The translations under genes were made by a program, and so were the position numbers. Below are positions 4,599-21,398 of a stretch of 64,000 nucleotides of DNA, piece by piece. Position 1 is the stretch's first letter, and each line of letters starts with the position of its first letter. Origin of the DNA: Streptomyces mobaraensis NBRC 13819 = DSM 40847 (GTDB lineage Bacteria; Actinomycetota; Actinomycetes; Streptomycetales; Streptomycetaceae); the NCBI RefSeq assembly GCF_017916255.1, contig NZ_CP072827.1, positions 6,845,501-6,909,500 on the forward strand. The letters run 5' to 3'. The notes beneath the pieces are model-generated. The model had not been told where the DNA came from and made no database searches. It saw only the letters and a program-made list of their open reading frames with translations.

Positions 4599-4768
4599 GT
4601 CAGCGCTCCTATCCAGCGTTGGCCACGCCCCCGGACCGGTCGCACGGTCGCGGGGGTCCACTGCGTTCCTGTGTCCTACCGACGGGTGTAGCGGCGGGAG
4701 GAGTCCAGTAACGAGCTGTGGCTGATGCGTAGTTGAACCACAAGCAGCGTGACCTACGTGACAGCTAG

Positions 4769-4805
4769 TTGGCAAGCGAGACGGTGAAACTGGCAATTTT
4801 GCCAA
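4769..4805. promoter_or_regulatory. TTGGCAA-type repeats, candidate XRE operator
   Basis: The divergent region holds TTGGCAA at 4769-4775 and the inverted repeat TGGCAA-tt-TTGCCA at 4791-4804, extended to TTGCCAA at 4805. The block is about 80 bp upstream of the XRE start and 170 bp upstream of the divergent operon. It is a plausible binding site for the adjacent regulator (inference). Confidence 0.5.
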
Positions 4806-4883
4806 CCCAGCGAGTGATCCCTCTGTGCGAGCATGCTCGGGCAGCACGGCCTGAACAGCGGTAGCGACGGGAGGTGGCGCGGG

Positions 4884-5726: not shown

Positions 5727-5959
5727 GCAAGCCTATCTATACACCCCCCAATGCGGACGCTGGATGGTTTAAGTCCAGCTATAGCGCAAGCAACAGTAAT
5801 TGCGTCGAAATGAGTATGCTCATGCCGAACATAGACATAGCGATACGTGATAGCAAAGAGCCGCGACGCCCCTTCCTGCGTGTCACGGAGAGGGCATGGA
5901 GTCGGTTCATATCGGAACTAAAGAGGAACCCTTCGCTATCTAGTGCCGTGACTGCATAG
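5723..5959 (+). CDS. DUF397 protein, 3' end altered by IS630 insertion
   Basis: 78-aa small protein of the DUF397 family, usual partner of XRE/DUF5753 regulators. The family pattern is clear: WFKSSYSASNSNCVEM, then IAIRDSKEP and a final AWSRFISEL helix. GTG 5723 overlaps the regulator's stop. The last four codons (AVTA) and the TAG stop lie inside the left terminal inverted repeat of the IS630 element that begins at 5943, so the native C-terminus has been replaced. Joining the sequence after 7075 restores an open frame of 16 further codons ending at 7133. Also, the sequence has somewhat lower GC than its neighbours. Confidence 0.88.
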   Translation: MSKPIYTPPNADAGWFKSSYSASNSNCVEMSMLMPNIDIAIRDSKEPRRPFLRVTERAWSRFISELKRNPSLSSAVTA

Positions 5960-5968
5960 GTTGGCCGG
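5943..5968 (+). repeat. left terminal inverted repeat of the IS630 element
   Basis: Begins GTGCCGTGACTGCAT and ends GGTTGGCCGG. It matches the reverse complement of 7050-7075 with three mismatches. It encodes the last residues and stop codon of the upstream DUF397 gene. Confidence 0.85.
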
Positions 5969-5976
5969 TTTCGTGG

Positions 5977-7004
5977 TCAGGCTTCGGGTCGTAGTGGCCT
6001 GCCACCCCAGCGGATTCCCTTCTCGCTGCGGACGCGTGCGCGTTCGCGTTGTTGGGCGGTCAGGACGTCGGGATGCCGCGCGTTCTGATTGCGCCAGTGG
6101 AGGTAGGCGTGCAGGGCCCGGGTCTGGGCGGTGTGGTTGGGGGTGGTGGGAGTTAGCGAGGGTGAACTGCCGCAAGGGTCCGAAGTGGGCTTCGATGGGG
6201 TTGGCTCAGGACGCGTAGGTCGGGGCGCCGTCCGGGCGGGCCGCGCGGGCCGACCGCTGGGCAGCCCAGGTATGGCCGGTGCCCTTGTGCCGCCGGACCA
6301 CGCCCCAGAGCCGGTCGTCACCGACCGAGTGACAGCCGTGGGAATAGGTGACGCCCTGAGTGCGGCGGTAGATGGCGGGCAGCCGGTCCGGGGGCCGGCC
6401 GGTGCCCAGTACGAGCCGTCGGTCGGGCGGATGCCGAGTGAGCCGAACTCGTCGAAGGCGAACGTGCGGTCCGGGCGTTCGGTGATGGCGTACTCGATCC
6501 GGTCCAGCTTGGCGTCGAAGGATGGTCCGGGGACTCCTCCCAGGTCTTGGTCCGCTGGAAGGAGATCCCGCGGCGGACCGGCAGGCCGCGAAGGGCTTCA
6601 CGGCCGATCCGGACAGGACGGGCGATGTTGCCGTGCAGGTGCTCGACGAGCTTGCGGAGCGACCAGCGCGTGAACGGTTTGTCCAGCGTGGTTGGGCGGG
6701 TGGTGGCCGTCTGGGCGACGAAGTCCTCGTCGTCACGGGTGAGCAGGCGGGGACGGCCTCCTGCCCACCGAGGGTCCAGACAGGCCAGCCCGATCTCGTT
6801 GAACCGGTGGATCACGTCGCGCACGGTGTCCTCGTCCGCCTGGACCAGACGCGCGAAGACGGGGACGGTGTTCTCGCCGGCCGAGGCGAGCAGCATCATC
6901 GCCCGCCGGAACCGCACCGCGCTGGTGGTGCCTCGCCGGACGATCCGCTGGAGCTTCCGGCCTTCCTGCTCGGTCAGCCTGCGGACCCTGACTGGTGGTG
7001 CCAT
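5977..7004 (-). pseudogene. IS630 family transposase, inactivated
   Basis: The N-terminal part (ATG 7004) is intact in one frame: the IS630 helix-turn-helix region with RGTTSAVRFRRAMMLLASAG and LVQADEDTVRDVIHRFNEIG. The frame then changes near 6530, where DRIEYAITERPDRTFAFDEF carries the first catalytic Asp. It changes again near 6410 (YSHGCHSVGDDRLWGV), and once more before the C-terminal NARHPDVLTAQQRERARVRS. At 6206 a TGA replaces the Trp codon before ANPIEAHFGPL. Directly before it the family's usual LDN-containing segment, with the second catalytic Asp, is missing. At least three frameshifts, one nonsense codon and one internal deletion make it non-functional. Confidence 0.85.
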
Positions 7005-7049
7005 CCCCGCCCCTCGTCGGTCGTTGCTTCCGGCCAGTCAACGAGCAAC

Positions 7050-7075
7050 CCGGCCAACCAATGCGGTCACAGCAC
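7050..7075 (-). repeat. right terminal inverted repeat of the IS630 element
   Basis: Read on the minus strand it begins GTGCTGTGACCGCAT and ends GGTTGGCCGG, pairing with 5943-5968. Confidence 0.85.
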
Positions 7076-7163
7076 GAGTTCCGAAAATGAGAGCACCCTC
7101 AGCCGGAATGTCTGGCCGGGGGATGTGCGCTGAAACCCTCAAGGCTATAGCGGGCAGCGGCAG

Positions 7164-7382
7164 TTACGGGGTATTCGCCCGGATCAAGGAGGCTGTTTTT
7201 ACCCCCGATATGAACTCATCCCATGCCTCCGTCTGAATGCGCAAACGGATACCGATCGGCTCTTTACTGTCGCGGACGACAGCAATTTCCCGTGCGTCTG
7301 CGTTCACCTCAACACATTGACCGTTCCCGCTACTGTGAGAACTCTTGCGCCATGTGATCTCGTGGCGATCCGCTTTACTCAC
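7164..7382 (-). CDS. DUF397 protein, orphan copy
   Basis: 72-aa DUF397 protein with the family pattern ITWRKSSHSSGNGQCVEV, IAVVRDSKEP and AWDEFISGVKTA. It faces the other DUF397 gene across the IS630 element. No XRE gene is adjacent on its strand; the upstream gene is the alpha-mannosidase. GTG 7382 is preceded by GAAGAGGT and is my choice; an in-frame GTG at 7403 would add seven residues. Confidence 0.8.
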   Translation of the reverse strand: MSKADRHEITWRKSSHSSGNGQCVEVNADAREIAVVRDSKEPIGIRLRIQTEAWDEFISGVKTASLIRANTP

Positions 7383-7502
7383 CTCTGATACCTCTTCTCT
7401 CACTGCATTCCTTGGGCCAATTCGGAAATCAGGTTCAAATTTCCCTCATTTCTTGCTGGGGCTGCGCGCCCGCACCCCCAGCAGCGGCTTCGGCGCGCGT
7501 CC

Positions 7503-10500
7503 TCAGACGTCGGACGGGCTGTCGCGGCGCGCCCGCAGTGTCACGATCTCGAAGGGCCGGAGTTCCAGGGACACCCCGTGCTCTGTCGACTCCACCTCCC
7601 CCAACGGCCGTTCCAGCAGGTCGCAGCGGTGCACGGTCGTCGTCGGGAAGTCGAACGCGACAGCCGTCCGGGCCCGGCCGCCCAGGGACTCGTACAGGCG
7701 GACCACGACGTCACCGCTCCCGTCGTCCGACAGCTTCACCGCCGACACCACCACCGCCTCGTCGTCCACGCGCACCAGGGACGGCGTCCCGCGGTCGCCC
7801 GGGACGCGGCGTTCCGGGATGCCGACGCGGTGGCCCTCGCACACGGCGTCGTCGATGCGGGCGCCCGGCACCAGGGCGTAGCCGAAGCGGTGCGCGCCCT
7901 GGTCGGTCCGGGGGTCGGGGAAGCGGGGGGCGCGGAGGAGGGAGAGGCGGAGGGTGGTGGTCGCGCCCGGGGCGGACGAGTCCGGGGTGCGGGCCGTGCG
8001 CGTCACGTCGTAGCCGTACGTCGAGTCGTTCACCAGGGCCACGCCCCAGCCGTGCTCCTCCACGTGGACGAAGCGGTGGGCGCACGCCTCGAACTTGGCC
8101 GCCTCCCAGCTCGTGTTGGTGTGCGCGGGCCGGTACAGGTGGCCGAACTGGGTCTCGGCGGCCACCCGGTCGGCGTGCACGTCCAGCGGGAAGGCGGCCT
8201 TGAGGAACTTCTCTGTCTCGTGCCAGTCGACCTCCGTCGTGAAGTCGACCCGCCGCAGTCCGTCGGGCAGCGCGATCCGCTGCTCGGCCCGGGACGCGCC
8301 GAACGCGCGGACCACCCGGACCGCGCCGTCGTCCGTGAGCTCCATCGACTGCACGTCCGTGAGGTCGGTGACGGTGTTGCGGTAGAACCGGTCGACGTCC
8401 CAGGCGTCCCACATGTTCGGGAAGTCCTGGTGCAGTTGGAGGAGGTTGGCCGCCGCGCCCGGGGGGATCGTCTCCCGGCGCGTCTCCTTGTCGATGACGG
8501 AGACGACGAGACCGCGCGCGTCGACCTCCACCCTCAGCAGGCCGTTCTCCAGGACGTACCCGCCGCTCTCGCGGGCCGTGGCCGTCGTCGGCGCCGGGCG
8601 CGGCAGCTCGTCCGCCGGCCGGGCGGACCGGGCCGCGACGCAGGCGCGTCCGTGCGGCGCGGCGTTGAAGACGACCGTGCCGCCGGCCGAGCCGTCCCCG
8701 GCGAGCGCCGCCAGCGCGTCCGCGACCAGCGACTCCAGCTCGGCGGCGACCGCCGCGTAGGTGGCCGCCGCCTCCCGGTGCACCCAGGCGATCGACGTGC
8801 CGGGCAGGATGTCGTGGAACTGGTGCAGAAGCACGGTCTTCCACAGCCGGTCCAGCCGCTCGTACGGGTACGGGAAGCCGGTGCGCACCGCCGCCGTCGC
8901 CGACCACAGCTCCGCCTCGTACAGCAGCCGTTCCGCCCGGCGGTTGCCCTGTTTGGTGCGGGCCTGGCTGGTGAGGGTGGCGCGGTGCAGCTCCAGGTAC
9001 AGCTCGCCGGCCCAGACCGGCGCGTCCGCCGCGTACTCGGCGTGTGCCTTCTCGAAGAACGCCGACGGCCGTTCGAACACCACCCGGGCCGACCCCTCCA
9101 GGTCCGCGAGCCGCCGGGCCCGCGCCAGCATCTCGCGCGTGGTGCCACCACCCCCGTCGCCCCAGCCGGTCGGGGCGAGGGAGCGGGTGGCGCCGCCCTT
9201 CTCCCGGAAGTTGCGCACGGCGTGGGCCAGTTCCTCGCCGGAGAGCTGGGCGTTGTAGGTGTCGATGGGCGGGAAGTGGGTGAAGACGCGGGTGCCGTCC
9301 AGGCCCTCCCACCAGAACGTGTGGTGGGGGAATGTGTTCGTTTTACTCCAGGAGATCTTCTGGGTCAGGAACCACTTCGATCCCGACAGCCGCACGAGTT
9401 GCGGAAGCGCGGCCGAGTAGCCGAACGAGTCCGGCAGCCACACCTCCTCCGTCTCGATCCCGAACTCCTCCAGGAAGAACCGCTTCCCGTGCGTGAACTG
9501 CCGGGCCAGCGCCTCCGACCCGGGCATGTTGGTGTCCGACTCCACCCACATCCCGCCGACCGGCACGAACCGCCCGTCCGCCACCGCCTTCTTCACCCGC
9601 GCCCAGACCTCCGGCCGGTGCTCCTTCACCCACGCGAACTGCTGCGCCTGCGACATCGCGTAGACGAAGTCCGGCTCCTCATCCAGCAGGGCCGTCATGT
9701 TGGACGTGGTCCGGGCCACCTTGCGGACCGTCTCGCGGAGCGGCCACAGCCACGCCGAGTCGATGTGCGCGTGGCCGACGGCGCTGATCCGGTGCGCCGA
9801 CGCCTGCGCCGGGGCCGACAAGGCGTCGGCGAGCAGTTCGCGGGCGCGGGCGGCCGTGCCGCCGACGTCCTGGAGGTCCACGGCGTCCAGCGCCCGTTCC
9901 ACCGCCCGCAGCACCTCCCAGCGGCGCGGCGACTCCTCGGGCAGACCGGTCATCAGCCCGTCCAGCACCTCCAGGTCGTGCACCAGCTCCCACACCACGG
10001 CGTCGAACACGGCCAGGTCCATACGGCCCAGCCGGTAGCGGGGGCGGCGGTCGGCCGTCGCGAGGTCACCCAGCTCGGTCGGGCGGAACGGCTCGTAGTC
10101 GAGGATCACCGGATTGGCGGCGGCCTCGACGTGCAGCCGCACCTCCTCGCCCCCGGCCACCGGGGCGCCGATCCGCACCCACTGGTTGCGCGGGTTGAGG
10201 CCCTTCACGGGCGAGCCGTCCGCCCGGTAGACCAGGCCCTCGCACTGGAATCCGGTCAGGTTGGGGTCGAAGCCGAGGTCCAGCAGGGCCTCGACGGTCC
10301 GCCCCGCCCACGCGGCGGGCACCGTGCCCGTCACCGTGAACCAGCTCGTCCCCCAGGCCGGGCCCCAGGCGTCGCCGGGCCCGATCGGCTCGCGTGGCGC
10401 CGCCAGGCCCTCCGCGACGGGCACGGGTTCGCCCGGGGCGTGCCACACGCCGACGGTCAGCGGCACCGACTCGGGGTACACGGCCGGACGGATGCGCTCG

Positions 10501-10550
10501 TCCAGCACCCGCCGCAGGCGGTCTTCGGTGGTCGTGCGGTCGTTGTGCAT
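7503..10550 (-). CDS. alpha-mannosidase, glycoside hydrolase family 38
   Basis: 1015-aa retaining alpha-mannosidase, with no signal peptide, so cytoplasmic. The zinc motif GHAHIDSAWLWP places His260, His262 and Asp264 as ligands, and WLPDSFGYSAALPQL places the nucleophile at Asp374. The order is GH38 catalytic domain (~250-530), middle helical bundle, then C-terminal beta domains (~650-1015); length is normal for the bacterial family. ATG 10550 has AAGGA 7 nt upstream. It is last in a leftward operon behind GH85, GH5 and sugar-import genes. That context suggests it removes alpha-linked mannose from imported N-glycan fragments (inference). Confidence 0.95.
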   Translation of the reverse strand: MHNDRTTTEDRLRRVLDERIRPAVYPESVPLTVGVWHAPGEPVPVAEGLAAPREPIGPGDAWGPAWGTSWFTVTGTVPAAWAGRTVEALLDLGFDPNLTGFQCEGLVYRADGSPVKGLNPRNQWVRIGAPVAGGEEVRLHVEAAANPVILDYEPFRPTELGDLATADRRPRYRLGRMDLAVFDAVVWELVHDLEVLDGLMTGLPEESPRRWEVLRAVERALDAVDLQDVGGTAARARELLADALSAPAQASAHRISAVGHAHIDSAWLWPLRETVRKVARTTSNMTALLDEEPDFVYAMSQAQQFAWVKEHRPEVWARVKKAVADGRFVPVGGMWVESDTNMPGSEALARQFTHGKRFFLEEFGIETEEVWLPDSFGYSAALPQLVRLSGSKWFLTQKISWSKTNTFPHHTFWWEGLDGTRVFTHFPPIDTYNAQLSGEELAHAVRNFREKGGATRSLAPTGWGDGGGGTTREMLARARRLADLEGSARVVFERPSAFFEKAHAEYAADAPVWAGELYLELHRATLTSQARTKQGNRRAERLLYEAELWSATAAVRTGFPYPYERLDRLWKTVLLHQFHDILPGTSIAWVHREAAATYAAVAAELESLVADALAALAGDGSAGGTVVFNAAPHGRACVAARSARPADELPRPAPTTATARESGGYVLENGLLRVEVDARGLVVSVIDKETRRETIPPGAAANLLQLHQDFPNMWDAWDVDRFYRNTVTDLTDVQSMELTDDGAVRVVRAFGASRAEQRIALPDGLRRVDFTTEVDWHETEKFLKAAFPLDVHADRVAAETQFGHLYRPAHTNTSWEAAKFEACAHRFVHVEEHGWGVALVNDSTYGYDVTRTARTPDSSAPGATTTLRLSLLRAPRFPDPRTDQGAHRFGYALVPGARIDDAVCEGHRVGIPERRVPGDRGTPSLVRVDDEAVVVSAVKLSDDGSGDVVVRLYESLGGRARTAVAFDFPTTTVHRCDLLERPLGEVESTEHGVSLELRPFEIVTLRARRDSPSDV

Positions 10551-10628
10551 CAGGTGTCCTTACCGATCGGGGTCACCGGGAGTTCGTTGCCGGGCGTTCC
10601 TTACGGGGTGTTCCTTACGGGGCCTTCC

Positions 10629-12932
10629 CTACCGGGAGTGCGGGTCCGGCCGGCGGAACCGGACGACGGCGGGGGCCGAGGAGGCGTACAGCTCGTCCAC
10701 CGCGCGCACCTCGACGCGCGTGACCGCGTCGCCGGCCGTACGGCGCAGCTCCGGAACGTAGAAGGCATGCCCACAGGTGCCGCCGAGGAAGCGGACGCCG
10801 CCGTCCGGCAGCCGCTGGTGGAGGAGGTAGTGGCGTACGGCCGAGGGCGACGGGTGCCAGGCCAGGCGGAGGGCGGCGGTGCCGTCGGGGCGGACGTCCG
10901 CCGCCGTGACCGTCGGGCGACCCGGAGGGGCCGGCGGCTTCGTCACGCCGTCCCGGACGGCCAGCCGGCCCAGCCGCCAGCGCACCGGCCCGCCGTCGGG
11001 CGCGCTGAGGCGTACGCCCAGGGTGCGGAGCGTGCCCCGGGCGCGGCCCCGCAGTAGAGCGCCCGCCCGGACGGTCACCGTGCTCCACGCCGGGCCGGCC
11101 CGCCCGGCGGCCAGGACGCCGGTGTGCCCGTCCCCCGCGTCCGCGGTGAACTCCACCCGCACCGGCGCGCTCCCCGCGTCCGTGCGGTACGTCAGCTCGA
11201 CGACCGTGGACGGCGACAGCGGCAGCCGGGCGGCGTACAGCTCCACCGTCGCGGGCTCCGGGAGCGGGCCGGCCACCAGCAGGCTGCCGCCGCCGTGCCA
11301 GGCGTCGGCGAAGTCGTAGCCGACGGACGGGGCCGGGTCCGGGCCGGCGGTCACCCGGCGGCGGCCGGGCAGCAGGTCCTGGAGGCCCAGGTGGTGCCAG
11401 GGGCCGGACGGGACGGGCCGCCCCCGCTCGTACCAGCCGAGCCCGTGGCCGGTGTTGAACACGGTCGCGAAGGGGAGGGCGGTGAGCGTGGAGCGGTCGG
11501 CGACGGACGCGGCGGGGGCGCGCCAGGTGCCTCCCGCGCCGCCCGTGCCGGTCCAGAAGCGGTCGTCGCGGGCGTGGAAGGCGGCGGGGGAGCGGTCGGC
11601 CGCCTGCTTCCAGGTCCACTCCGGGTGGTACAGGCCCAGGGAGGTCACGTGCGGGCGGTCGGCCGGGAGGACGGCGTCCCAGTCGACGGGCGTGTCCCAG
11701 CCGCGCGCCTCCACGTCGACGCCGGCCCACAGCTCGTACCGGTCCCGGCCCATGGCCTCGGCCCGCTCCCCGGACGACCGCAGGCCGCCGCGCGTCCAGC
11801 CGAAGTTGACGAACATCGTGCCGGCCGCGCGGAAGAAGGCGTCATTGTGCTCGTTCAGCTCGTTCTGCCACGCGACGTCCCCGGAGATCGCCAGCGCGTC
11901 GTACCAGGTGACGCGGAGTCCGGTGGCCCTGAGGTGCGCCACGAAGTCGCGCATGTCCGCGCCGAGCCGGGCGTCGCCGCCCTCCGTCTCGGCGTTGAGG
12001 AACCAGCCGTCGAAGCCGTACGCGCGGGCCACCGCGGCCAGCCGGCCGGCCAGCGGGAAGCCGCCGTCCGGCGCCCGGCGCAGCAGGTCCCGCGTCCACT
12101 CCAGCCGGCCGCCGAAGGCCGCCGGGGGCAGGAACACCGTGCCCAGGACGGGGACGCCGTGGCGGTGGGCGGCGTCCACGACGGGCGCGGTGGGCGCGAG
12201 GACCAGGCCCTCGCCCGAGGAGCCGCCCCAGAACACCAGCTCGTCGAGGTGGGACCAGTGGGTGAAGGCGTAGTGGTCGGCGGTCGGGCCGCCCTGGGAG
12301 GGGTGTCCGGAGGTGGGGGCGAAGGAGACCAGGGCGCTGATCCGGGCCTGCCCGGCCCGGGCGCCGCCGCGCGGTGGGGGAGTGAACCGCGGGGCGAGCG
12401 GGACGGACGCGCGGTTGAAGGGGAGATCGGGGTCGTCCTCCGGTCTCCACCGGGCGAGGCTCCGCCAGACGACACCGGGCGGGGGCGTGCCCGGGGGCGG
12501 GGTGTCGGGGAACCAGTAGGCGGCGTACGGCCGGAGGTCCGGGGCCGCGTTCCCCGCGGCGCCGCCCGCCGGGGCGTCCGCCCGACCGGCGGCCCGCGCC
12601 GCCGACGGCCGGGCGAGCGGCGTGGCGAACGCGGTCGCGAAACCGGCGGCGAGGACGGTACGGCGTGCGAGCCCGGCGGCAGGCGCGCGGCGGGTGGTCC
12701 CGGCGGGAACGGACCGGTGGGTGGATCCGGCGGGTACGAGGGTGCGGGCGGGCGTAGGCGGGACGGATCTGTCGGCGGCTCCGGCGGCTCCGGCAGCTCC
12801 GGCGGCTCCGGTAGCTCCGGCAGTCCCGGCGACATCGGTGGCCCCGGCGGCCGCGGCGCGACCAGTGGTATTGGCGCGATCGCCCGGCCGGGCGGATCCG
12901 GCGGTCCCGGATCCGTGGGTGGGTCCGTGCAT
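10629..12932 (-). CDS. endo-beta-N-acetylglucosaminidase, glycoside hydrolase family 85
   Basis: 767-aa GH85 ENGase, which cleaves the GlcNAc-GlcNAc bond of the N-glycan core. The substrate-assisted catalytic pair is seen in GFDGWFLNAETEG, with Asn313 and Glu315. Flanking family segments HWSHLDELVFWGGSSGEG and FVNFGWTRGG are present, and the last ~300 residues form beta domains. A twin-arginine-like signal (RRTVLAAGF, ~90-98) precedes an Ala-rich cleavage region, so export is likely. An odd 85-residue Gly/Ala/Pro-rich stretch precedes the signal. ATG 12932 has GGAGGA 7 nt upstream, so the long form seems to be translated; no equally good internal start was found. Confidence 0.93.
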   Translation of the reverse strand: MHGPTHGSGTAGSARPGDRANTTGRAAAAGATDVAGTAGATGAAGAAGAAGAADRSVPPTPARTLVPAGSTHRSVPAGTTRRAPAAGLARRTVLAAGFATAFATPLARPSAARAAGRADAPAGGAAGNAAPDLRPYAAYWFPDTPPPGTPPPGVVWRSLARWRPEDDPDLPFNRASVPLAPRFTPPPRGGARAGQARISALVSFAPTSGHPSQGGPTADHYAFTHWSHLDELVFWGGSSGEGLVLAPTAPVVDAAHRHGVPVLGTVFLPPAAFGGRLEWTRDLLRRAPDGGFPLAGRLAAVARAYGFDGWFLNAETEGGDARLGADMRDFVAHLRATGLRVTWYDALAISGDVAWQNELNEHNDAFFRAAGTMFVNFGWTRGGLRSSGERAEAMGRDRYELWAGVDVEARGWDTPVDWDAVLPADRPHVTSLGLYHPEWTWKQAADRSPAAFHARDDRFWTGTGGAGGTWRAPAASVADRSTLTALPFATVFNTGHGLGWYERGRPVPSGPWHHLGLQDLLPGRRRVTAGPDPAPSVGYDFADAWHGGGSLLVAGPLPEPATVELYAARLPLSPSTVVELTYRTDAGSAPVRVEFTADAGDGHTGVLAAGRAGPAWSTVTVRAGALLRGRARGTLRTLGVRLSAPDGGPVRWRLGRLAVRDGVTKPPAPPGRPTVTAADVRPDGTAALRLAWHPSPSAVRHYLLHQRLPDGGVRFLGGTCGHAFYVPELRRTAGDAVTRVEVRAVDELYASSAPAVVRFRRPDPHSR
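12774..12830. repeat. 9-bp tandem repeats coding Gly-Ala-Ala in the GH85 leader
   Basis: Repeats of GGCTCCGGC and close variants encode the AGATGAAGAAGAAGAA stretch near residues 39-53 of the GH85 protein, upstream of its signal peptide. Copy number is likely to vary between strains. Confidence 0.7.
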
Positions 12933-13047
12933 GACGCTCCTCCGAGGGGATATGCGGAGGGACAGCCCCGGCCCCGGGGATCGCGCCCTCCTCGTTCGGC
13001 TCCGGGGTCCGCGGGCGGACCGGGCCCGCGGCGGTGTCCGGCGGTGG

Positions 13048-14322
13048 TCAGGGAAGCCGGTCGGCGGCGATCGTCTCCTCGATGCCCCGGGCCGCCAAGT
13101 GGCCCGGTTCGGTGATGCGTTGGGCGAGCACCACGGCCGGACGGACCCCGTCCGCGGCGTTCCGCATCCACGCCTCGAAGAAGGCGCCGCCCGGTGCGCA
13201 CAGCGGTCGCAGCGGCGCGCTCTCCACGTCGCCCGCGTCGAGGATCAGCGCCGTGCGCCGGGGCGCGGGCCCGTCGTACGCGCCCGCCCGGCCCGCCGCG
13301 CTCTCCTCGAACTCCCTGTACTCCCGTACCACCCGGGCCAGCGCCTCGCCCGCCGGTTTGAGCCGGCGGTCGTTGGTGAACAGCCCCAGGTCGTACTCCA
13401 GCGCCGGGAAGTCGGCCAGGGCCCGGTCCACGTCGTGCGAGCACCACCAGGTGACCCCCCACAGCCCGGGGCAGTCCAGTGCGTTGCGGAGGGTCGTGCG
13501 GGTGAACTCGGCCGCCCGCGCGGGCGGTATGTGCGGCGCGGGCGCCCCGACCTCCTGGAGCCACACCGGGCGCGCCGGATCGTCGGCCCACGCCTTGGAC
13601 AGTTCGATCAGGTACGCGGCGTGCAGCCCGGTCGCCGCGCCGTCCGGGCCGTGCCGCTGGGCGGTGCCGTTGAACACCCACGAGTGCACGGCGGTCATGG
13701 CGCCGATCCGGGCCGCGTGCGCGGGTGTGAAGGGGTGCGTGCCGTCGTACCAGGCGGCGTCGTACGCGGCGTGCAGATGCGTCCGGCCGGGCGCGGCCCG
13801 TTCGCACGCCTCCGTCATCCGGCGCAGCCAGCGGCCCGCCTCGGCGGTGGTGACCCGGTCCGGGGCGGGGTGCGGGTCGCCGGCGAACTGGTTGGTCTCG
13901 TTGCCGACGGTCATGCCGAGGAAGTTGGCCCGCCCGGCGAGCGCCCCCGCCAGCGCCGCGAGGTAGCGGGCCTGGGCGTCCACGACGTCCGGGTCGGTGA
14001 ACAGGTTGCGGCGGTGCCAGGTGGTCACCCACGAGGGCAGGAAGTCGAAGCTCGACAGGTGCCCCTGCAGCCCGTCCACGGCGACGTCCAGGCCGCGTTC
14101 GCCTGCCGCGTCCACCAGCCGGACCAGCTGCTCGACGGCGCGCGGCCGGATCAGCGTCCGGTTGGGCTGGAACAGCGGCCAGAGCGGGAAGACCCGGATG
14201 TGGTCCAGGCCGAGGGACGCCACGCCGTCCAGATCGGCGCGGACGTCGTCGAGGTCGAAGTCCAGCCAGTGGTGGAACCAGCCCCGGCTGGGGGTGTAGT
14301 TGACGCCGAAACGCACGCTCAT
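13048..14322 (-). CDS. glycoside hydrolase family 5, probable beta-mannosidase
   Basis: 424-aa cytoplasmic TIM-barrel enzyme beginning MSVRFGVNYTPSRGWFHHWL. The acid/base is Glu142 in GMTVGNETNQF and the nucleophile Glu257 in VWLQEVGAP, as in clan GH-A. I place it in GH5, close to the subfamily (GH5_18) that splits the Man-beta-1,4-GlcNAc core disaccharide; the subfamily is from memory and not tested. ATG 14322 is preceded by GGAGAGGAG. It lies between the permease genes and the GH85 gene in the same leftward operon, which supports a role in finishing N-glycan breakdown. Confidence 0.85.
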   Translation of the reverse strand: MSVRFGVNYTPSRGWFHHWLDFDLDDVRADLDGVASLGLDHIRVFPLWPLFQPNRTLIRPRAVEQLVRLVDAAGERGLDVAVDGLQGHLSSFDFLPSWVTTWHRRNLFTDPDVVDAQARYLAALAGALAGRANFLGMTVGNETNQFAGDPHPAPDRVTTAEAGRWLRRMTEACERAAPGRTHLHAAYDAAWYDGTHPFTPAHAARIGAMTAVHSWVFNGTAQRHGPDGAATGLHAAYLIELSKAWADDPARPVWLQEVGAPAPHIPPARAAEFTRTTLRNALDCPGLWGVTWWCSHDVDRALADFPALEYDLGLFTNDRRLKPAGEALARVVREYREFEESAAGRAGAYDGPAPRRTALILDAGDVESAPLRPLCAPGGAFFEAWMRNAADGVRPAVVLAQRITEPGHLAARGIEETIAADRLP

Positions 14323-14354
14323 GGAGCTCCTCTCCGGAACGGGGTCCAGGACGT

Positions 14355-15185
14355 TCAGCCCTTGACGGCGCCCTCGCCGGCCCCGCGGAAGAAGTACCGC
14401 TGGAGGCAGGCGAACAGCACCACGAGCGGGGCCACCGCGATGACGGTCCCGGCGGCGACGAGCCGCGGGTCCTGCTGGAACGTGCCGTGCAGGAAGTTCA
14501 GGCCGACGGTCAGCGTGTAGCGCTCGGAGTCCGACAGGACGATCAGCGGCCAGAGGAAGTCGTCCCAGGCGCCCATGAACGCGAAGATCGCGACGACGGC
14601 GAGCGTCCCGCGCACCGACGGCAGCGCGATCCGGGTGAACCGCTGCCAGGTGTTCGCGCCGTCGACGACCGCCGCCTCCTCGATCTCGCGCGGGACACCG
14701 GCGAACGCGTTCCGCATGAGCAGCACGTTCAGCGCGCCGACGGCCCCGGGCAGCACCACGGCGGTGAGGGTGTTGTTCAGGTGGAGGTCGCGCATCATGG
14801 TGAACTGCGCGATCACCAGCGACTCCGCGGGCACCAGCAGCGCCGCCACGAAGGCCAGCCCCGCGAGCCCGCGGCCCCGGAAGCGCAGCCGGGCCAGCGC
14901 GTAGCCCGCCGTCGACGCCCCCGCCAGGTTGGTGAGCACGCTCGCCACCGCCACCGTCAGCGAGTTGAGGGCGTAGTCCCAGACCGGGACGATGTCGGCC
15001 ACCTCGGCGTAGTTGTGCGCGGTGGGGTGCGCGGGCAGGAAGCGGGGCGGCGAGGTGTAGACGTCCTCGGTCGTGCTCTTGAACGAGGTGGACAGCTGCC
15101 AGAGGAACGGGCCGACGGTCAGCGCCAGCACCACGAGCAGCAGCACGTAGCGGAACACCTTCTCCGCCCACGACGTCCTGGTCAC
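14355..15185 (-). CDS. ABC sugar transporter permease (MalG/CUT1 type)
   Basis: 276-aa inner-membrane permease with about six transmembrane helices. The EAA loop VPREIEEAAVVDGANTWQRF contacts the ATPase. It is of the CUT1 (carbohydrate uptake) type. GTG 15185 overlaps the stop of the partner permease by four bases. The operon encodes no ATPase; Streptomyces CUT1 systems normally share MsiK, encoded elsewhere. The likely substrate is an N-glycan-derived oligosaccharide, from the neighbouring hydrolases (inference). Confidence 0.92.
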   Translation of the reverse strand: MTRTSWAEKVFRYVLLLVVLALTVGPFLWQLSTSFKSTTEDVYTSPPRFLPAHPTAHNYAEVADIVPVWDYALNSLTVAVASVLTNLAGASTAGYALARLRFRGRGLAGLAFVAALLVPAESLVIAQFTMMRDLHLNNTLTAVVLPGAVGALNVLLMRNAFAGVPREIEEAAVVDGANTWQRFTRIALPSVRGTLAVVAIFAFMGAWDDFLWPLIVLSDSERYTLTVGLNFLHGTFQQDPRLVAAGTVIAVAPLVVLFACLQRYFFRGAGEGAVKG

Positions 15186-16165
15186 CGGTGCCCCTCCCGG
15201 TCCGCCGCGTTCCCGCCCCGGCCGGCGCGCAGCACCAGCAGCATCAGCAGCAGCGCGATCACGAAGACGACGAGGGACAGGGCGGAGGCGTAGCCGACGC
15301 GCCCGTCGAGACCGGTGCCCGTCCGCTGCACCAGCATGACGAGCGTGGTGTCCTCCCCGGCCGGCCCGCCGGTGGGCCCCGCCAGCAGGAACACCTCTGA
15401 GAAGACCTTGCACGCGGAGACCGACGACAGGGCGCCGACCAGCACCATCGTCGAGCGGACGGCCGGCACGGTGACGCTGGCGAAGCGGCGCAGCGGGCCG
15501 GCGCCGTCGACCGCCGCGGCCTCGTGCAGCTCGCGCGGGACGTTGGCCAGCGCGGCCAGGTAGATCACCATGTAGTAGCCGAGGCCCTTCCACACCGTCA
15601 GCGCCATCGCGCTGAACAGGAGCAGCCAGGAGTCGCCGAGGAACGACACCGGCCCGGCGCCCAGCGCCTTGAGGATGCCGTTGACCAGCCCCCGGTCGTC
15701 CAGCATCCAGGACCAGATCAGCGCCACCGCCACCACCGAGGCCACCACCGGGGTGTAGAACGCGGCCCGGAAGAAGCCCATCCCCGGAAGCCTCTTGTGC
15801 ACCAGCAGCGCCAGCAGCAGCGGCAGCAGCACGGTGAACGGGACGACGAGGACGACGTACAGCGCGCTGTTCCGCAGGGCCACCCAGAACTGCTCGTCAC
15901 GCAGCATGTCCCGGAAGTTCCGCAGCCCGACCCAGTGCCCGGGGACGAGCGTCCGGGCGTCGGTGAACGCGTCGCGGACGGTCGTCAGGAACGGGAACAG
16001 GCTGAACGCGGCGAGGACGGCGAGCCCGGGGAGCAGGAGCAGCCAGGGGGTCACGGGGTGGTGGAGGCGGACGCCTCTGCGGGCCAGGTCTCCGCGGGCG
16101 ATGTCTCGGCGGCGGGCGATGTCTCCGCGGGCCACGTCTCTGCGGGCCACGTCTCTGCGGGCCAT
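15182..16165 (-). CDS. ABC sugar transporter permease (MalF/CUT1 type)
   Basis: 327-aa permease with six predicted membrane helices from about residue 38. The EAA loop is VPRELHEAAAVDGAGPLRRF. The first ~32 residues are an unusual Arg/Asp repeat (MARRDVARRDVARGD...) encoded by short tandem DNA repeats. ATG 16165 has GGAAG 10 nt upstream and lies 7 bp after the binding-protein stop. A GTG giving VTPWLLLLPGL would remove the repeat but lacks a ribosome binding site. It forms the heterodimer with the downstream MalG-type permease. Confidence 0.9.
   Translation of the reverse strand: MARRDVARRDVARGDIARRRDIARGDLARRGVRLHHPVTPWLLLLPGLAVLAAFSLFPFLTTVRDAFTDARTLVPGHWVGLRNFRDMLRDEQFWVALRNSALYVVLVVPFTVLLPLLLALLVHKRLPGMGFFRAAFYTPVVASVVAVALIWSWMLDDRGLVNGILKALGAGPVSFLGDSWLLLFSAMALTVWKGLGYYMVIYLAALANVPRELHEAAAVDGAGPLRRFASVTVPAVRSTMVLVGALSSVSACKVFSEVFLLAGPTGGPAGEDTTLVMLVQRTGTGLDGRVGYASALSLVVFVIALLLMLLVLRAGRGGNAADREGHR
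16078..16163. repeat. short tandem repeats at the 5' end of the MalF-type permease gene
   Basis: Units related to GCGGGCCACGTCTCT (plus strand), about 15 bp with variants, are repeated five to six times. They encode the ARRDV/ARGDI pattern before the first membrane helix. They look like replication-slippage expansion. Confidence 0.7.
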
Positions 16166-16172
16166 GGCCGGA

Positions 16173-17483
16173 TCACTTCCGCCGCAGCAGCCGGTCGCTC
16201 TGCTCCACCGCGTCGTCGAGTGCCTCCTTCGGCGACTTCTTTCCCTGGAGGGCCTTGGCGACCTCGTTCCGCAGAATCGTCTTCATCTCGTCGCTCATCA
16301 CCACGGGCGTGTAATTCACGGCGCCTTTCAGCGCTTTCGCCGAGGCGACCCGCACCCGGCCCTCGTCCGTCCCGTCGTCCTTCGTCCAGTACGGGTCGTC
16401 GAGCGAACCCTTCGTGCTCGGGAAGACGGCGACCCGGTGCGCGAACGCCTCCTGGTTCCTCCGGTCGGTCACGAAATGGGCGAAGGCGATGGCCGCGGCC
16501 TTGTGGTTGCTGTTCTTGTTGACCGCGAGGCCCATGACGTACATGTTCGGCTTCCCGGTGTTGTTCGGGGCGTCGGTGATTCCGAGGTTCCGGTACAGAC
16601 TCGGCGCGTTCTTCCGGAAGTTCGCCAGGTCGTTCGCGCCGCCCGGATTCATGGCGACCTTCTGCTCCAGGAATTTCCGGCCCGCCTGTTCCGGAGTGCT
16701 CGTGAGCGCCTGCGGATCCAGGCCGCCGTCGTCGTGCAGCCGCTTGTAGCGGGTCAGTAGCTCGACGCCCTTGGACTCGTTGTAGGTGAACCGGGTGGCG
16801 TCGTCGTTCATCAGCCGGACCCCGTACCGGCCGAAGTCCTCGATCGCCGGGGTGCCCGCCAGAGTGGCCGTCCGGCCGCCCGACCGGCGGGACATCTCCG
16901 CGGCGGCGGTGAACAGCTCGTCGTAGGTCCGCGGCGGCTTCTCCGGATCCAGACCGGACGCGCGGAACAGGGACTTGTTGTAGAACAGCGGGCCCGTGGT
17001 GAGGTACCAGGGGAACGCGTACGCCCCGTCCAGCCCCGGCAGGGTGTTCCCCCGCCACGCCTCCGCCGTGTACTCGTCCCGGAACTTCGCGGCCACCGGC
17101 TCCTTGTCGAGGTTCAGCAGCACGCCCGCCTTGGCCAGCGGATAGGAGAGGTCCGGGGAGACGTTGACGACGTCGGGCAGCGTGCCGGCGGCGGCGTCCG
17201 CCCCGAGTTTGTCCGCGTAGTGCTCGGCGGGCTGGTCCAGCCATTTCACCGTGACATCGGGATGCCGTTTCTCGAATTCCTTCGCCAGCGACTCGAAGTA
17301 GTCCTTGTAACCGGCCCGGAGATTCCAGGTCTGGAACGATATCCGGCCCTCGATCCGCCCGTCCGCCGCCGACCCGCCACCCCCTCCGCCGTCCGAACCG
17401 CAGGCGCTCAGCGCCAGCGCGAGGGCGAGCAGCGGAACGGCCGGCCGGACGGTTCTCCGGACGACTCCACGGGACGGGTGCAT
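16173..17483 (-). CDS. ABC sugar transporter substrate-binding lipoprotein
   Basis: 436-aa family 1 extracellular solute-binding protein. A signal peptide ends in the lipobox LSAC (Cys28), followed by a Gly/Ser linker, so it is a membrane-anchored lipoprotein. Family landmarks include RISFQTWNLRAGYKDYFESL, FPWYLTTGPLFYNKSLF and a C-terminal KSPKEALDDAVEQSDRLL helix. It delivers the sugar to the two adjacent permeases. It is first gene of the leftward operon and faces the LacI regulator; a palindrome lies 85-100 bp upstream of its start. Confidence 0.93.
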   Translation of the reverse strand: MHPSRGVVRRTVRPAVPLLALALALSACGSDGGGGGGSAADGRIEGRISFQTWNLRAGYKDYFESLAKEFEKRHPDVTVKWLDQPAEHYADKLGADAAAGTLPDVVNVSPDLSYPLAKAGVLLNLDKEPVAAKFRDEYTAEAWRGNTLPGLDGAYAFPWYLTTGPLFYNKSLFRASGLDPEKPPRTYDELFTAAAEMSRRSGGRTATLAGTPAIEDFGRYGVRLMNDDATRFTYNESKGVELLTRYKRLHDDGGLDPQALTSTPEQAGRKFLEQKVAMNPGGANDLANFRKNAPSLYRNLGITDAPNNTGKPNMYVMGLAVNKNSNHKAAAIAFAHFVTDRRNQEAFAHRVAVFPSTKGSLDDPYWTKDDGTDEGRVRVASAKALKGAVNYTPVVMSDEMKTILRNEVAKALQGKKSPKEALDDAVEQSDRLLRRK

Positions 17484-17567
17484 GGCCGGGCTCCTTCGGT
17501 CGGGCCGGAAGGTGGCGGTCCAAAAGGTGCACCCGGCAAGGGAGTCACGTCAATACTTCCGTCAACG

Positions 17568-17583
17568 ACTAATGCGCTTTAGT
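17568..17583. promoter_or_regulatory. LacI-type operator candidate
   Basis: ACTAATGCGCTTTAGT is an inverted repeat (ACTAA/TTAGT) around a central GCGC. Even symmetry with a central CG is typical of LacI-family sites. It lies between the divergent lacI-type gene and the sugar-uptake operon. Confidence 0.65.
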
Positions 17584-17636
17584 GTGTTGGGGCCCGGGCC
17601 GGTGCCGGGCCCGCTCCGGACGCCCGAGGAGACCCC

Positions 17637-18689
17637 ATGCGCCGCCTGCCGGCCCGCCGCCCGACCATCCGCGACATCGCCCGCCGCGCCGGGGTGTCGG
17701 AGAGCGCGGTGTCCTTCGCGCTCAACGGCCGCCCGGGCGTCTCGGAGGGCACCCGCGAGCGGGTCCGGCGCGTCGCCGAGCAGTTGGGCTGGCAGCCCAG
17801 CACGGCGGCCCGCGCGCTGTCCGGCGAGGGCTCCGCCACCGTCGGCCTGGTCCTCGCCCGGCCCGCCAGGACCCTCGGCGTCGAGTCGTTCTTCCTCCGG
17901 CTCGTCTCCGGCGTCCAGGAGGCCCTCGCCGCGCGCGGCCTCGGCCTGCTCTTCCAGGTGGTCGAGGACGTGGCCGCCGAGTGCGCCGTGCACCGCCGCT
18001 GGTGGGCCGAGCACCGCGTCGACGGCCTCCTCGTCGTCGACCCGCGCGCCGACGACCCCCGGCCCGCCCTGCTCGCCGGGCTCGGCCTGCCCACCGTGGT
18101 GATCGGCGCGATGGACGACCCCGCCTGGGAACCGGCCCCCGACGGCGCGCTCTCCAACCTCTGGGCCGACGACGCCGAGGCCATGGACTCCGTCGTCGCC
18201 CGGCTCGACGCCCTCGGCCACCGCCGCGTCGCCCACGTCGCGGGCCTCGGGGAACTCGCCCACACCCTGCGCCGCGCCGCCGCCCTGCGCCGGGCCGCCG
18301 AGCGCCACGGCCTGCACGTCACCTCCGTGACCACGGACTACTCCGACGCCCAGGGCGCCGAGGCCACCCACCGGCTGCTCGCCGCCCCCCGGCCGCCCAC
18401 CGCCGTCGTCTACGACAACGACGTGATGGCCGTCGCCGGCCTCGCCGCCGCCGCCCGCCGCGGCCTGGCCGTCCCCGCCGACCTCTCCATCGTCGCCTGG
18501 GACGACTCCGTCCTCTGCCGCAGCACCCACCCACCCCTCACCGCCCTCGCCCGCGACACCGCCGCCTTCGGCCGCCGCGCCGCCGAGGAACTCGTCGCCC
18601 TCCTGGACGGCGCCCCGGCCCGCCGCACCCGCGACGCGACGCCGCTGCTGGTGGAACGGGGGTCGACGGGGCGGGCGGCGGCCACCTGA
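17637..18689 (+). CDS. LacI family transcriptional regulator
   Basis: 350-aa repressor. The N-terminal helix-turn-helix reads TIRDIARRAGVSESAVSFAL (residues ~10-29), followed by a hinge helix with QPSTAARALSG. The periplasmic-binding-protein-like sensor domain runs from about 65, with VVYDNDVMAVAGLAAA and SIVAWDDSVL. It is transcribed divergently from the sugar importer/glycosidase operon with a palindrome between them. It probably represses that operon until an N-glycan-derived sugar is bound (inference). Confidence 0.92.
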   Translation: MRRLPARRPTIRDIARRAGVSESAVSFALNGRPGVSEGTRERVRRVAEQLGWQPSTAARALSGEGSATVGLVLARPARTLGVESFFLRLVSGVQEALAARGLGLLFQVVEDVAAECAVHRRWWAEHRVDGLLVVDPRADDPRPALLAGLGLPTVVIGAMDDPAWEPAPDGALSNLWADDAEAMDSVVARLDALGHRRVAHVAGLGELAHTLRRAAALRRAAERHGLHVTSVTTDYSDAQGAEATHRLLAAPRPPTAVVYDNDVMAVAGLAAAARRGLAVPADLSIVAWDDSVLCRSTHPPLTALARDTAAFGRRAAEELVALLDGAPARRTRDATPLLVERGSTGRAAAT

Positions 18690-18737
18690 CACACAGCTCC
18701 CACCTCGATCATGACCACTCCGCGCCGTGCGATTTAA

Positions 18738-18754
18738 TTGCGAGGTATTCGCAA
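18738..18754 (+). promoter_or_regulatory. Nur-box-like inverted repeat
   Basis: TTGCGA-N5-TCGCAA is a perfect inverted repeat 33 bp upstream of the binding-protein start. It closely resembles the Streptomyces Nur box (tTGCaa-N5-ttGCAA) bound by the nickel-responsive Fur-family repressor. It supports nickel control and nickel as the substrate of the following operon. Confidence 0.7.
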
Positions 18755-18786
18755 CAGCAACCGAGAAGTGAACTGGGGTGGAGGGC

Positions 18787-20391
18787 ATGACGGCCCGGTC
18801 CATACGGGTGACGGCCGCCATGGTCGCGGCGGGCGTGCTGGCCACGGGCGCCGCCGCCTGCGGCAAGCCCGGCGGCGGGAACGGCGGGAACGGTTCCGGC
18901 GGGGTCAGGGACTCGCTCGTCGTCGGCATCGCGAACGAGCCGGAGACCCTCAGCCCCCTGCTCGGCTACGGCAAGGACGGCAACTCCAAGATCTTCGACG
19001 GCCTGCTGCGCCGCGGCGCGGACATGAAGCTCCGCCCCGCCCTCGCCGCGTCCTTCCCGAAGGTCACCGACGACGGCCGCACCTACACCTTCCCGCTCCG
19101 GCACGGGGTGACGTTCAGCGACGGCAAGCCCTTCACCGCCGAGGACGTCGTCTTCACCTACCGGACGATCCTCGACGAGAAGACCAACAACGCCGACAAG
19201 GGCGAGCTCGCCGCCGTCGACAAGGTCACCGCCCGCGGCGACGACACCGTCGTCTTCTCCCTGAAGTACCCCTACGCGCCCTTCGCCGAGCGCACCGTCC
19301 TGCCGATCGTCCCCGAGCACGCCGCCAAGGGACAGGACGTCAACACCGGCCCGTTCAACACCAAGCCCATCGGCACCGGCCCCTACGTCCTCACCGGCTG
19401 GAGCAAGGGCGAGAAGCTGACCTTCAAGGCCAACCCCGACTACTGGGGCGGCGAACCGAAGGTCAAGAAGCTCACTATGGCCATCATCAAGGACGACGAC
19501 GTCCGGGCCACCCGGCTGCGCAGCGGCGACCTCGACGGCGCCATCCTGCCGCCCAACCTCGTCAAGGGCTTCCAGGGCGACGACTCCAAGACGACGATCA
19601 CCGCGAAGACCACCGACTTCCGCGGCGTGACCCTGCCCACCGGCAACAAGGTCACCGGCGACACCGCCGTCCGCCGCGCCCTCGACCTCGCCGTCGACCG
19701 CGACGCCATGGTCAAGAGCCTGCTGGAGGGCGCGGGCCGGGCCGGCTACGGGCCCGTCCCCACCGACAGCGAGTGGTTCGCCAAGGGCACCGAGCGCCCG
19801 CACGACCCCGAGAAGGCGAAGAAGCTGCTGGATGACGCGGGCTGGAAGCCCGGTGCCGACGGCATCCGGGAGAAGGACGGCGAGCGCGCCGAGTTCACCC
19901 TCTGGTTCCCCGCCGGTGACAAGCTCCGCCAGGAGCACGCCCTCGCCTTCGCCTCCGACGCCAAGAAGATCGGCATCCGGGCCAAGGTGCAGAGCGGCAC
20001 CTGGGAGGTCATCGAGCCGCGCCTGAAGGACGACGCGGTCCTCGCCGGCGGCGGCAACCCGGCCGACCCCGACTTCGACCTCTACAACCTGCTGCACTCC
20101 TCCCTCGCCCTCGACGGCTTCAACAACATGGCCGCCTACAAGAACCCCGAGGTCGACAAGGCCCTGGAGGAGGGCCGGCGCAGCGGCGACAAGGCCGTCC
20201 GCAAGGCCGCGTACGACAAGGTCCAGCACGCCCTCGCCGACGACCCCGGCTACGTCTTCCTCACCCACGTCGACCACCTCTACGTGATGAGGGACAACTG
20301 GAAGGACCTCACCACCCAGGTCGAGCCGCACGACCACGGCCTCGGCGCCGGCCCCTGGTGGAACGTCGAGGACTGGCAGCCGAAGCGGTGA
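18787..20391 (+). CDS. nikA: ABC transporter substrate-binding lipoprotein, nickel/peptide family (NikA-like)
   Basis: 534-aa family 5 extracellular solute-binding protein. The signal peptide ends in a lipobox at GAAAC (Cys25), then a Gly/Asn linker. Family motifs include YTFPLRHGVTFSDGKPFTAE, PIGTGPYVL and NPDYWGG. The family binds peptides, opines or nickel chelates. The Nur-like box upstream and the order A-B-C-D-E plus ferredoxin favour nickel. ATG 18787 is just behind GGAGGG; an in-frame GTG at 18778 is the alternative. First gene of a tightly coupled six-gene operon. Confidence 0.85.
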   Translation: MTARSIRVTAAMVAAGVLATGAAACGKPGGGNGGNGSGGVRDSLVVGIANEPETLSPLLGYGKDGNSKIFDGLLRRGADMKLRPALAASFPKVTDDGRTYTFPLRHGVTFSDGKPFTAEDVVFTYRTILDEKTNNADKGELAAVDKVTARGDDTVVFSLKYPYAPFAERTVLPIVPEHAAKGQDVNTGPFNTKPIGTGPYVLTGWSKGEKLTFKANPDYWGGEPKVKKLTMAIIKDDDVRATRLRSGDLDGAILPPNLVKGFQGDDSKTTITAKTTDFRGVTLPTGNKVTGDTAVRRALDLAVDRDAMVKSLLEGAGRAGYGPVPTDSEWFAKGTERPHDPEKAKKLLDDAGWKPGADGIREKDGERAEFTLWFPAGDKLRQEHALAFASDAKKIGIRAKVQSGTWEVIEPRLKDDAVLAGGGNPADPDFDLYNLLHSSLALDGFNNMAAYKNPEVDKALEEGRRSGDKAVRKAAYDKVQHALADDPGYVFLTHVDHLYVMRDNWKDLTTQVEPHDHGLGAGPWWNVEDWQPKR

Positions 20392-21398
20392 GCACCCGCG
20401 GTACCCGCGGGACGGCCCTGCCCTGGGGGCCGATGGCCCGCATGGCGGGACGGCGGCTGCTCGCCGCCGTCCCCGTCCTGCTCGTCGTGACCTTCGCCGT
20501 CTTCGCCGTCGCCGCCGCCTCCCCGTTCGACCCCGCCCGGGTCTACGCGGGCGGCGGCGCGCCCGGCACCGGCCAGGACGTCCTGGACCAGCTCCGGCAC
20601 AACCTCGGCGCCGACCGGCCGTTCGCCGCCCGCTGGTGGGACTGGCTGACCGCCGCCCTCACCGGCGACCTCGGCGTCTCCACCACCCTGCGGCAGCCCG
20701 TCGCCCAGGCCATCGGCGAACGCATCGGCTGGTCCGTGCTGCTCTGCGGCACCGCCTTCGCCGCCGCCGTCCTCGTCGGCACCGCGCTCGGCGTACTCGC
20801 CGCCCGGCGCCGCGGCGGGCTCCTCGACCGGGCCGTCACCTCCCTGGCGTACGTCCTGGAGGCGGCGCCGCCGTTCTGGCTCGGCCTGCTGGCCGTCTGG
20901 TTCTTCGCCCTCAAGACCGGCGCGCTGCCCGCCGGCGGCCTCACCGACACCGGCAGCGACACCGTCACCGCCGGACAGGTCGCCTCCCACCTGGTGCTGC
21001 CCGCGGCCGTGCTCGCCGTCACCCAGCTGCCGTGGTTCGTGCTGTACGTGCGCCAGGGCGTCGGCGACGCGCTCGACGAGGACCCGGTACGCGGCGCCCG
21101 CGCCCGCGGCCTCTCCGAACGCACCGTCCTGCTCGGCCACGCCCTCCGCTCGGGACTGCTGCCGGTCCTCACCCTGATCGGCTCCCGCGTCCCCGAACTG
21201 ATCACCGGAGCCCTGCTCGTGGAGACCGTCTTCAGCTGGCCGGGCATCGCCTCCGCCACCGTCGACGCCGCGACCGGCGTCGACTTCCCGCTGCTCGCCG
21301 CGCTCACCGTGCTGGCCACGGCGGCCGTGCTGGTCGGCAATCTGCTGTCGGACCTGCTGTACGGGCTGGCCGACCCGAGGGTGGGCTTCGATGGCTGA
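20388..21398 (+). CDS. nikB: ABC transporter permease (NikB/DppB-like)
   Basis: 336-aa inner-membrane permease with the DppB/NikB topology: an N-terminal helix (LLAAVPVLLVVTFAVFAVAAA), an extracytoplasmic loop, then five helices. The EAA loop includes DPVRGARARGLSERTVLLGH. GTG 20388 overlaps the nikA stop by four bases. It pairs with NikC to form the channel. Confidence 0.88.
   Translation: MSTRGTRGTALPWGPMARMAGRRLLAAVPVLLVVTFAVFAVAAASPFDPARVYAGGGAPGTGQDVLDQLRHNLGADRPFAARWWDWLTAALTGDLGVSTTLRQPVAQAIGERIGWSVLLCGTAFAAAVLVGTALGVLAARRRGGLLDRAVTSLAYVLEAAPPFWLGLLAVWFFALKTGALPAGGLTDTGSDTVTAGQVASHLVLPAAVLAVTQLPWFVLYVRQGVGDALDEDPVRGARARGLSERTVLLGHALRSGLLPVLTLIGSRVPELITGALLVETVFSWPGIASATVDAATGVDFPLLAALTVLATAAVLVGNLLSDLLYGLADPRVGFDG

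Follow-up and report, generated by a model that had tools for sequence, protein, structure and literature searches.

In the 64,000-nucleotide stretch of the Streptomyces mobaraensis NBRC 13819 = DSM 40847 genome analysed here (the window; positions 6845501-6909500 of the single-contig genome of 7.57 Mb) we identified a probable LacI-controlled operon for the utilisation of protein N-glycans, with predicted functions for release, import and intracellular digestion of the sugar. We assign a probability of about 85% to this reading, which is based on what the sequence shows directly: the genes present, their homology, the alignment of catalytic residues, and the conservation of gene order and operator. 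The locus comprises an ATP-binding cassette (ABC) importer with its solute-binding protein (SBP), three glycoside hydrolases (GH) and a regulator. In the list, Man and GlcNAc stand for mannose and N-acetylglucosamine.

17637-18689, plus strand: LacI-family regulator, divergent from the other genes; LacI and Peripla_BP_3 domains (Pfam)
17568-17583, no strand: predicted LacI operator ACTAATGCGCTTTAGT, a palindrome in the gap between the LacI and SBP genes
16173-17483, minus strand: sugar-binding lipoprotein, SBP of the CUT1 type; SBP_bac_1 domain (148 bits), lipobox Cys28
15182-16165, minus strand: ABC permease, BPD_transp_1 domain
14355-15185, minus strand: ABC permease, BPD_transp_1 domain; GTG start, 4-base overlap
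13048-14322, minus strand: GH5_18, predicted Man-beta-1,4-GlcNAc beta-mannosidase; ATG start, 424 amino acids, Glu142/Glu257, 672 bits to 7lr7
10629-12932, minus strand: GH85 endo-beta-N-acetylglucosaminidase (ENGase); 767 amino acids, Glyco_hydro_85 and GH85_C domains, twin-arginine signal, Asn313/Glu315
7503-10550, minus strand: GH38 alpha-mannosidase; 1015 amino acids, four GH38-type domains, Asp374, without a signal

The gaps between successive genes from the SBP gene to the GH38 gene are 7, -4, 32, 115 and 78 bases, and since they span only -4 to 115 bases, they suggest that the minus-strand genes form one transcript. The gap between the LacI and SBP genes is 153 bases. A scan of 7300-18800 for sigma-70-type promoters gave no match, with 0.2 expected. 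The original prediction, made from the letters of this DNA, had described six leftward genes with short gaps or overlaps and a divergent LacI gene; all seven are present, with coordinates refined here, and the residues it named in GH85 (Asn313/Glu315) and GH38 (Asp374) were found as stated. It had further proposed an exported GH85, a cytoplasmic GH38, a GH5 enzyme of the Man-beta-1,4-GlcNAc type and, as the operon encodes no ATPase, a shared MsiK; the evidence below agrees with all four.

The GH5 protein has no Pfam or NCBIfam family match. Among chains of solved structure, it is closest to 7lr7, ScGH5_18 (672 bits, residues 2-419), followed by 9y4v, BlGH5_18, BlMan5B and 6gvb (CaMan5_18) with 456 to 360 bits. 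The nine best chains (672-360 bits) are all GH5_18, BlMan5B or CaMan5_18, plus 9y4v, which is labelled only 'Glycosyl hydrolase'; the nearest chain outside the subfamily is an endo-beta-mannanase with 77 bits. By these alignment scores, not by a tree, the protein is assigned to GH5_18, the Man-beta-1,4-GlcNAc mannosidase subfamily. Glu142 aligns with Glu in 7lr7 and with Ala in 7lr8, and Glu257 (LQEVGAP) is common to five aligned chains; aligned as they are with catalytic residues, the two form the predicted acid/base and nucleophile pair. By eye, the protein has no signal-like start. Hydrolysis of Man-GlcNAc by CaMan5_18 is documented (PMC6160142).

In the GH85 protein, the Glyco_hydro_85 domain scores 267 bits (Pfam), and the closest solved chains are 2vtf (374 bits), spr0440 (212 bits) and Endo D (209 bits). 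We take 2vtf to be Endo-A, which presumably accepts high-mannose glycans. Asn313 is aligned to the Asn of 2vtf, and opposite Glu315 this chain has Gln, presumably an engineered mutation. Export of the protein is predicted: at residue 90 it carries RRTVLAAG, a motif of the twin-arginine type, recognised by eye and not by a signal predictor; the N-termini of its orthologues likewise carry RR motifs. Only one start codon is present within the first 120 codons of the frame, and it is preceded by GGAGGAG. About 90 low-complexity Ala/Gly/Thr/Pro codons (12666-12932) open the gene, ahead of the twin-arginine signal. A similar yet different low-complexity stretch is seen in the GH85 of S. huiliensis (L040), and several other orthologues start near the signal.

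The N-terminal, middle and C-terminal domains of GH38 are recognised by Pfam (319 bits). Its closest solved chain is 7ufs (861 bits), followed by three others (836, 832 and 763 bits); presumably these chains come from Bifidobacterium longum, the structure table giving no organism. Asp374 lies in the WLPDSFGY segment, common to 7ufs, and by eye the protein has no signal-like start.

A search of the whole genome gave 130 ATPase matches, one of them above the UgpC cut-off (466 bits). This gene stands alone: seven of the 22 open reading frames (ORFs) of at least 150 amino acids in 11 kb around it were tested, and these were SpoU, MMPL, M24 peptidase or without a match, with no importer part among them. 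This putative UgpC/MsiK-like ATPase could serve the N-glycan importer; Streptomyces sugar importers are reported to use MsiK (PMC4890002, PMC6167110).

We propose the following flow, in which the substrate, the repression, the inducer and the use of the stand-alone ATPase are inferred. High-mannose (or trimmed) N-glycans would be cleaved within their chitobiose core by the exported GH85, one GlcNAc staying attached to the protein. The resulting Man(n)GlcNAc would be imported by the lipoprotein and the two permeases, with the shared MsiK-like ATPase supplying the energy. In the cytosol, GH38 would strip alpha-mannose down to Man-beta-1,4-GlcNAc, to be split by GH5_18 into mannose and GlcNAc. 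LacI would bind the one palindrome between lacI and the lipoprotein gene and be released when a sugar of the pathway is present.

To assess conservation, we considered the best 80 of 585 matches to the GH5 protein, mostly from Streptomyces and some from Kitasatospora; records very close to the S. mobaraensis genome may be missing from this list, and the nearest relative in it is from S. huiliensis (91%). Gene order could be analysed in 69 of the 80 loci, having 6.5 kb and 8 kb of flank, while 11 with too little flank were set aside. The order SBP-permease-permease-GH5-GH38 is kept in 60 of the 69, and the divergent LacI gene is present in 59 of these 60 (all except L055). Of these order-conserved loci, 37 have GH85 between GH5 and GH38, 8 carry it on the opposite strand, 1 has it elsewhere and 14 lack it.

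The nine other loci include five of a reduced form (L070, L071, L090, L113, L116), consisting of a ROK kinase, LacI, GH5 and GH85; in the flanking DNA examined, neither an importer nor GH38 accompanies them. A ROK kinase occurs in 12 of the 80 loci (the family was checked on two), and a flanking protein of L070, which has GH85, is such a kinase. The gene content of the relatives' loci fits a diet of mannose and GlcNAc. At the level of 101 genomes of the genus, GH5_18 is present in 56 and GH85 in 45, and 44 of the 45 GH85 genomes also carry GH5_18 (Fisher p 2.7e-16, uncorrected for shared ancestry); in the remaining one, G030, the GH85 match is an 89-position piece only.

With up to 2 mismatches allowed, the palindrome ACTAATGCGCTTTAGT occurs nowhere else in the window, and 100 shuffles gave no match. 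We chose the motif by eye from the window before testing it on relatives of the same locus. At the same threshold, 62 of 73 loci have it in the corresponding gap, with at least 2 copies in 31, and 23 of 31 adjacent pairs are spaced by 23-24 bases. The relatives contain 93 matches in 52,680 gap bases versus 3 in 1,437,990 other bases, and each of 30 shuffled palindromes matched in at most 1 locus. Eight of the 11 gaps where the site was not found belong to loci with a more distant LacI gene. In the S. mobaraensis genome itself, a search allowing 1 mismatch in the 14-base core gives one site only, the reversed control also giving one match. The exact core occurs in the 101 genomes at 49 sites (40 genomes), compared to 14 sites (12 genomes) for the reversed control; 34 of its sites (32 genomes) are within 8 kb of GH5, and 35 of the 56 GH5 genomes have a site versus 5 of the 45 without GH5 (p 1.4e-7). 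We consider this conserved operator to be the predicted binding site of the divergent LacI.

The possibility that the core is exclusive to the N-glycan LacI was rejected. Five exact-core sites sit in GH5-negative genomes (L141-L145); as read from the letters, those of L141-L143 adjoin a different LacI-type gene, that of L144 lies by genes resembling the neighbours of L142 and L143, and that of L145 is beside no recognised gene. Next to this other LacI-type regulator are genes that look FAD-dependent and hydantoinase-like, and palindromes almost identical to the operator stand at the regulator's own start (L141-L144); perhaps one type of operator serves both LacI systems.

All 15 operator sites far from GH5 in the 101 genomes were inspected. 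Five of them come from loci that assembly or rearrangement has split: between SBP and LacI in G028; between SBP and a giant GH38, which stands before LacI, in G008; upstream of SBP-permease-permease in G048 (two sites); and, in G045, between LacI and GH38 alongside a fragment of a permease. The locus of this last genome (L134, L135) looks rearranged: LacI, GH38 and the permease fragment are together, GH5 is at a second place accompanied by fragments of a permease and of GH38, and each place has an operator. In G039 (two sites) and G053 (one site), genomes with a locus of the reduced form, the operator precedes a remote SBP-permease-permease-GH38 operon (the GH38 match of G053 falls in two pieces), and GH5 and GH85 are elsewhere, with an operator site of their own.

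In two GH5-positive, GH85-negative genomes, G092 and G080, an exact operator is located approximately 43 bases ahead of a GH18 match, the two GH18 proteins being 83% identical. The G092 protein scores 290 bits with 2y8v, a putative class III chitinase, and 274 bits with 4ac1, the ENGase Endo T; as it is related to both, its ENGase activity is only likely. The fully symmetric operator before these two genes resembles the sites of the other LacI-type regulator, and they may be governed by the N-glycan LacI or by that other one.

The position of the ENGase gene also varies in occupant. Seven of the eight opposite-strand GH85 genes lie beyond LacI. The Kitasatospora loci L080 and L111 are of the same type, and the slot there holds an Endo T-like GH18 that shares 53% identity with the G092 protein. 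L068, from S. tateyamensis, has an Endo H-like gene (378 bits) after GH38. All three loci are among the 14 that keep the order and lack GH85. Endo T-like GH18 occurs in 5 of the 101 genomes, including 3 of 12 GH5-positive, GH85-negative genomes versus 1 of 44 with both (p 0.028), which is suggestive of a stand-in for GH85. Either GH18 type is present in 5 of the 12 versus 7 of the 44 (p 0.11). The numbers did not support Endo H-like GH18 as a regular substitute: of the 13 genomes with it among the 101, it is found in 3 of the same 12 versus 10 of the 89 others (p 0.18).

Nine flanking proteins, from nine GH85-less loci (L060, L065, L073, L081, L093, L095, L100, L103, L106), included no ENGase; their families are alpha-amylase, LuxR-type, peptide SBP, helicase, esterase, aldo-keto reductase, BNR-repeat, exporter and molybdopterin-oxidoreductase. 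The counts are small, and they are suggestive of an ENGase that is exchangeable among the relatives. Tentatively, and at a little under even odds, Streptomyces and Kitasatospora might have, for N-glycan catabolism, a small dedicated LacI regulon with a stable core (GH38, GH5_18, importer and LacI) and an exchangeable ENGase module. This module would be GH85 or a GH18 of the Endo T-like or Endo H-like type, lying within the locus, next to it, or at a distance through a gained operator. A second regulator with similar sites, which may be present in G092 and G080, weakens this reading. If true, the operator would allow finding unknown N-glycan enzymes by sequence alone.

A second, giant GH38 is present in or beside 9 of the 80 loci (L076, L077, L080, L098, L101, L107, L111, L114, L117), in some of them between LacI and SBP. 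It has 1405-1522 amino acids where measured, with an NPCBM_assoc-like region in the three tested (family checked on three), and is possibly an extracellular alpha-mannosidase.

Several points weigh against an N-glycan utilisation operon. The relatives are not independent samples, and in 11 of the 14 order-conserved loci without GH85 no ENGase was found in the flanking DNA with GH85, both GH18 queries and the GH18 motif. The ligand of the SBP is not readable from its sequence, because its solved relatives bind diverse sugars (the best, 6wpm, with 105 bits). S. mobaraensis has a sole GH38 and, in a search of the genome, no GH125. The high-mannose pathway of B. longum is alike in GH18/GH85 release without prior trimming, import and intracellular GH38, but uses three GH38 enzymes and GH125 (PMC10154615). 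The original prediction had called the pathway complete; release, import and trimming are supported by the gene content, whereas completeness goes beyond it, as a single GH38 may not handle every alpha-linkage.

Other readings differ mainly in the substrate. The operon could serve a narrower one, with trimming outside the cell (e.g. by two GH92 enzymes), GH85 acting on Man3-5 cores like Endo D, and the importer taking Man3-5GlcNAc. Two GH92 genes with signal-like, hence exported-looking, starts are indeed present elsewhere in the genome, but neither has an operator nearby, the genome having the single site, and GH85 is closer to 2vtf, presumably Endo-A, than to Endo D (374 versus 209 bits); we consider this arrangement unlikely. 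It has a precedent in the EndoD/NgtS-P1-P2 system of Streptococcus pneumoniae, where GH85 is likewise combined with an importer without its own ATPase and a shared MsmK is suggested; there, alpha-1,2 trimming must precede the action of Endo D, the gene of which is apart from the importer (PMC5215778), whereas in S. mobaraensis GH85 and the importer are in one LacI-linked operon.

It is quite improbable that the real food is another beta-mannoside or an alpha-mannan, of plant or fungal origin, with N-glycans as a side substrate. The GH38 and GH5 families do include enzymes acting on other mannosides, and the unreadable SBP ligand leaves room for them; on the other side are the distance of this GH5 from mannanases (672 versus 77 bits), the presence of GH5_18 in 44 of 45 GH85 genomes and the restriction to N-glycans of those GH85 members that have been characterised to date (PMC10154615). 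Hardly credible is a role on an own or developmental polysaccharide instead of food: although two GH5 enzymes clustering with GH5_18 beta-mannosidases are described as opening Actinoplanes sporangia (PMC12691653), GH5 and GH38 here lack a signal and go together with an importer and LacI. We retain the N-glycan operon as the preferred reading.

A study by Higgins et al. (2021), the title of which names gut- and soil-dwelling actinobacteria, is said to place GH5_18 in Gram-positive utilisation loci that share importer and N-glycan genes, ScGH5_18 from Streptomyces cattleya being among the enzymes. The locus type with GH5_18, GH38 and an importer is already in print. N-glycan locus 1 of Cutibacterium acnes is alike in having GH38 beside GH5_18, a sugar ABC transporter and regulator genes; unlike the present locus, it has GH20 and an Endo T-like GH18 in place of GH85 and belongs to a host-associated bacterium (PMC6160142). 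What may be new here is the conserved LacI operator, its presence at split loci, and the ENGase exchange; a literature search with most subscription journals outside its range recognised nothing, in the text available to it, on a LacI operator or ENGase exchange in such loci. The operon supports the notion that free-living streptomycetes, and not only gut bacteria, have a dedicated pathway for glycoprotein sugars, the sources being presumably fungal, plant or animal. The conserved operator would be a route to further ENGases, enzymes that serve to analyse and remodel glycoproteins.

Some other features of the window were observed. Just left of GH38, the G+C content of 4001-8000 is 0.656 versus 0.72-0.77 around, and much of 5700-7500 is without a long coding ORF. 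A peptide/nickel-type ABC operon (SBP_bac_5, permeases and ATPase; 18778-24830) is directly behind LacI, and in L081, too, a gene like this SBP_bac_5 comes after the locus. At 26193-29558, a protein of 1121 amino acids joins lysyl-tRNA synthetase, with its transmembrane region, to a phosphatidylglycerol lysyltransferase domain; we take this fusion to be LysX-like.

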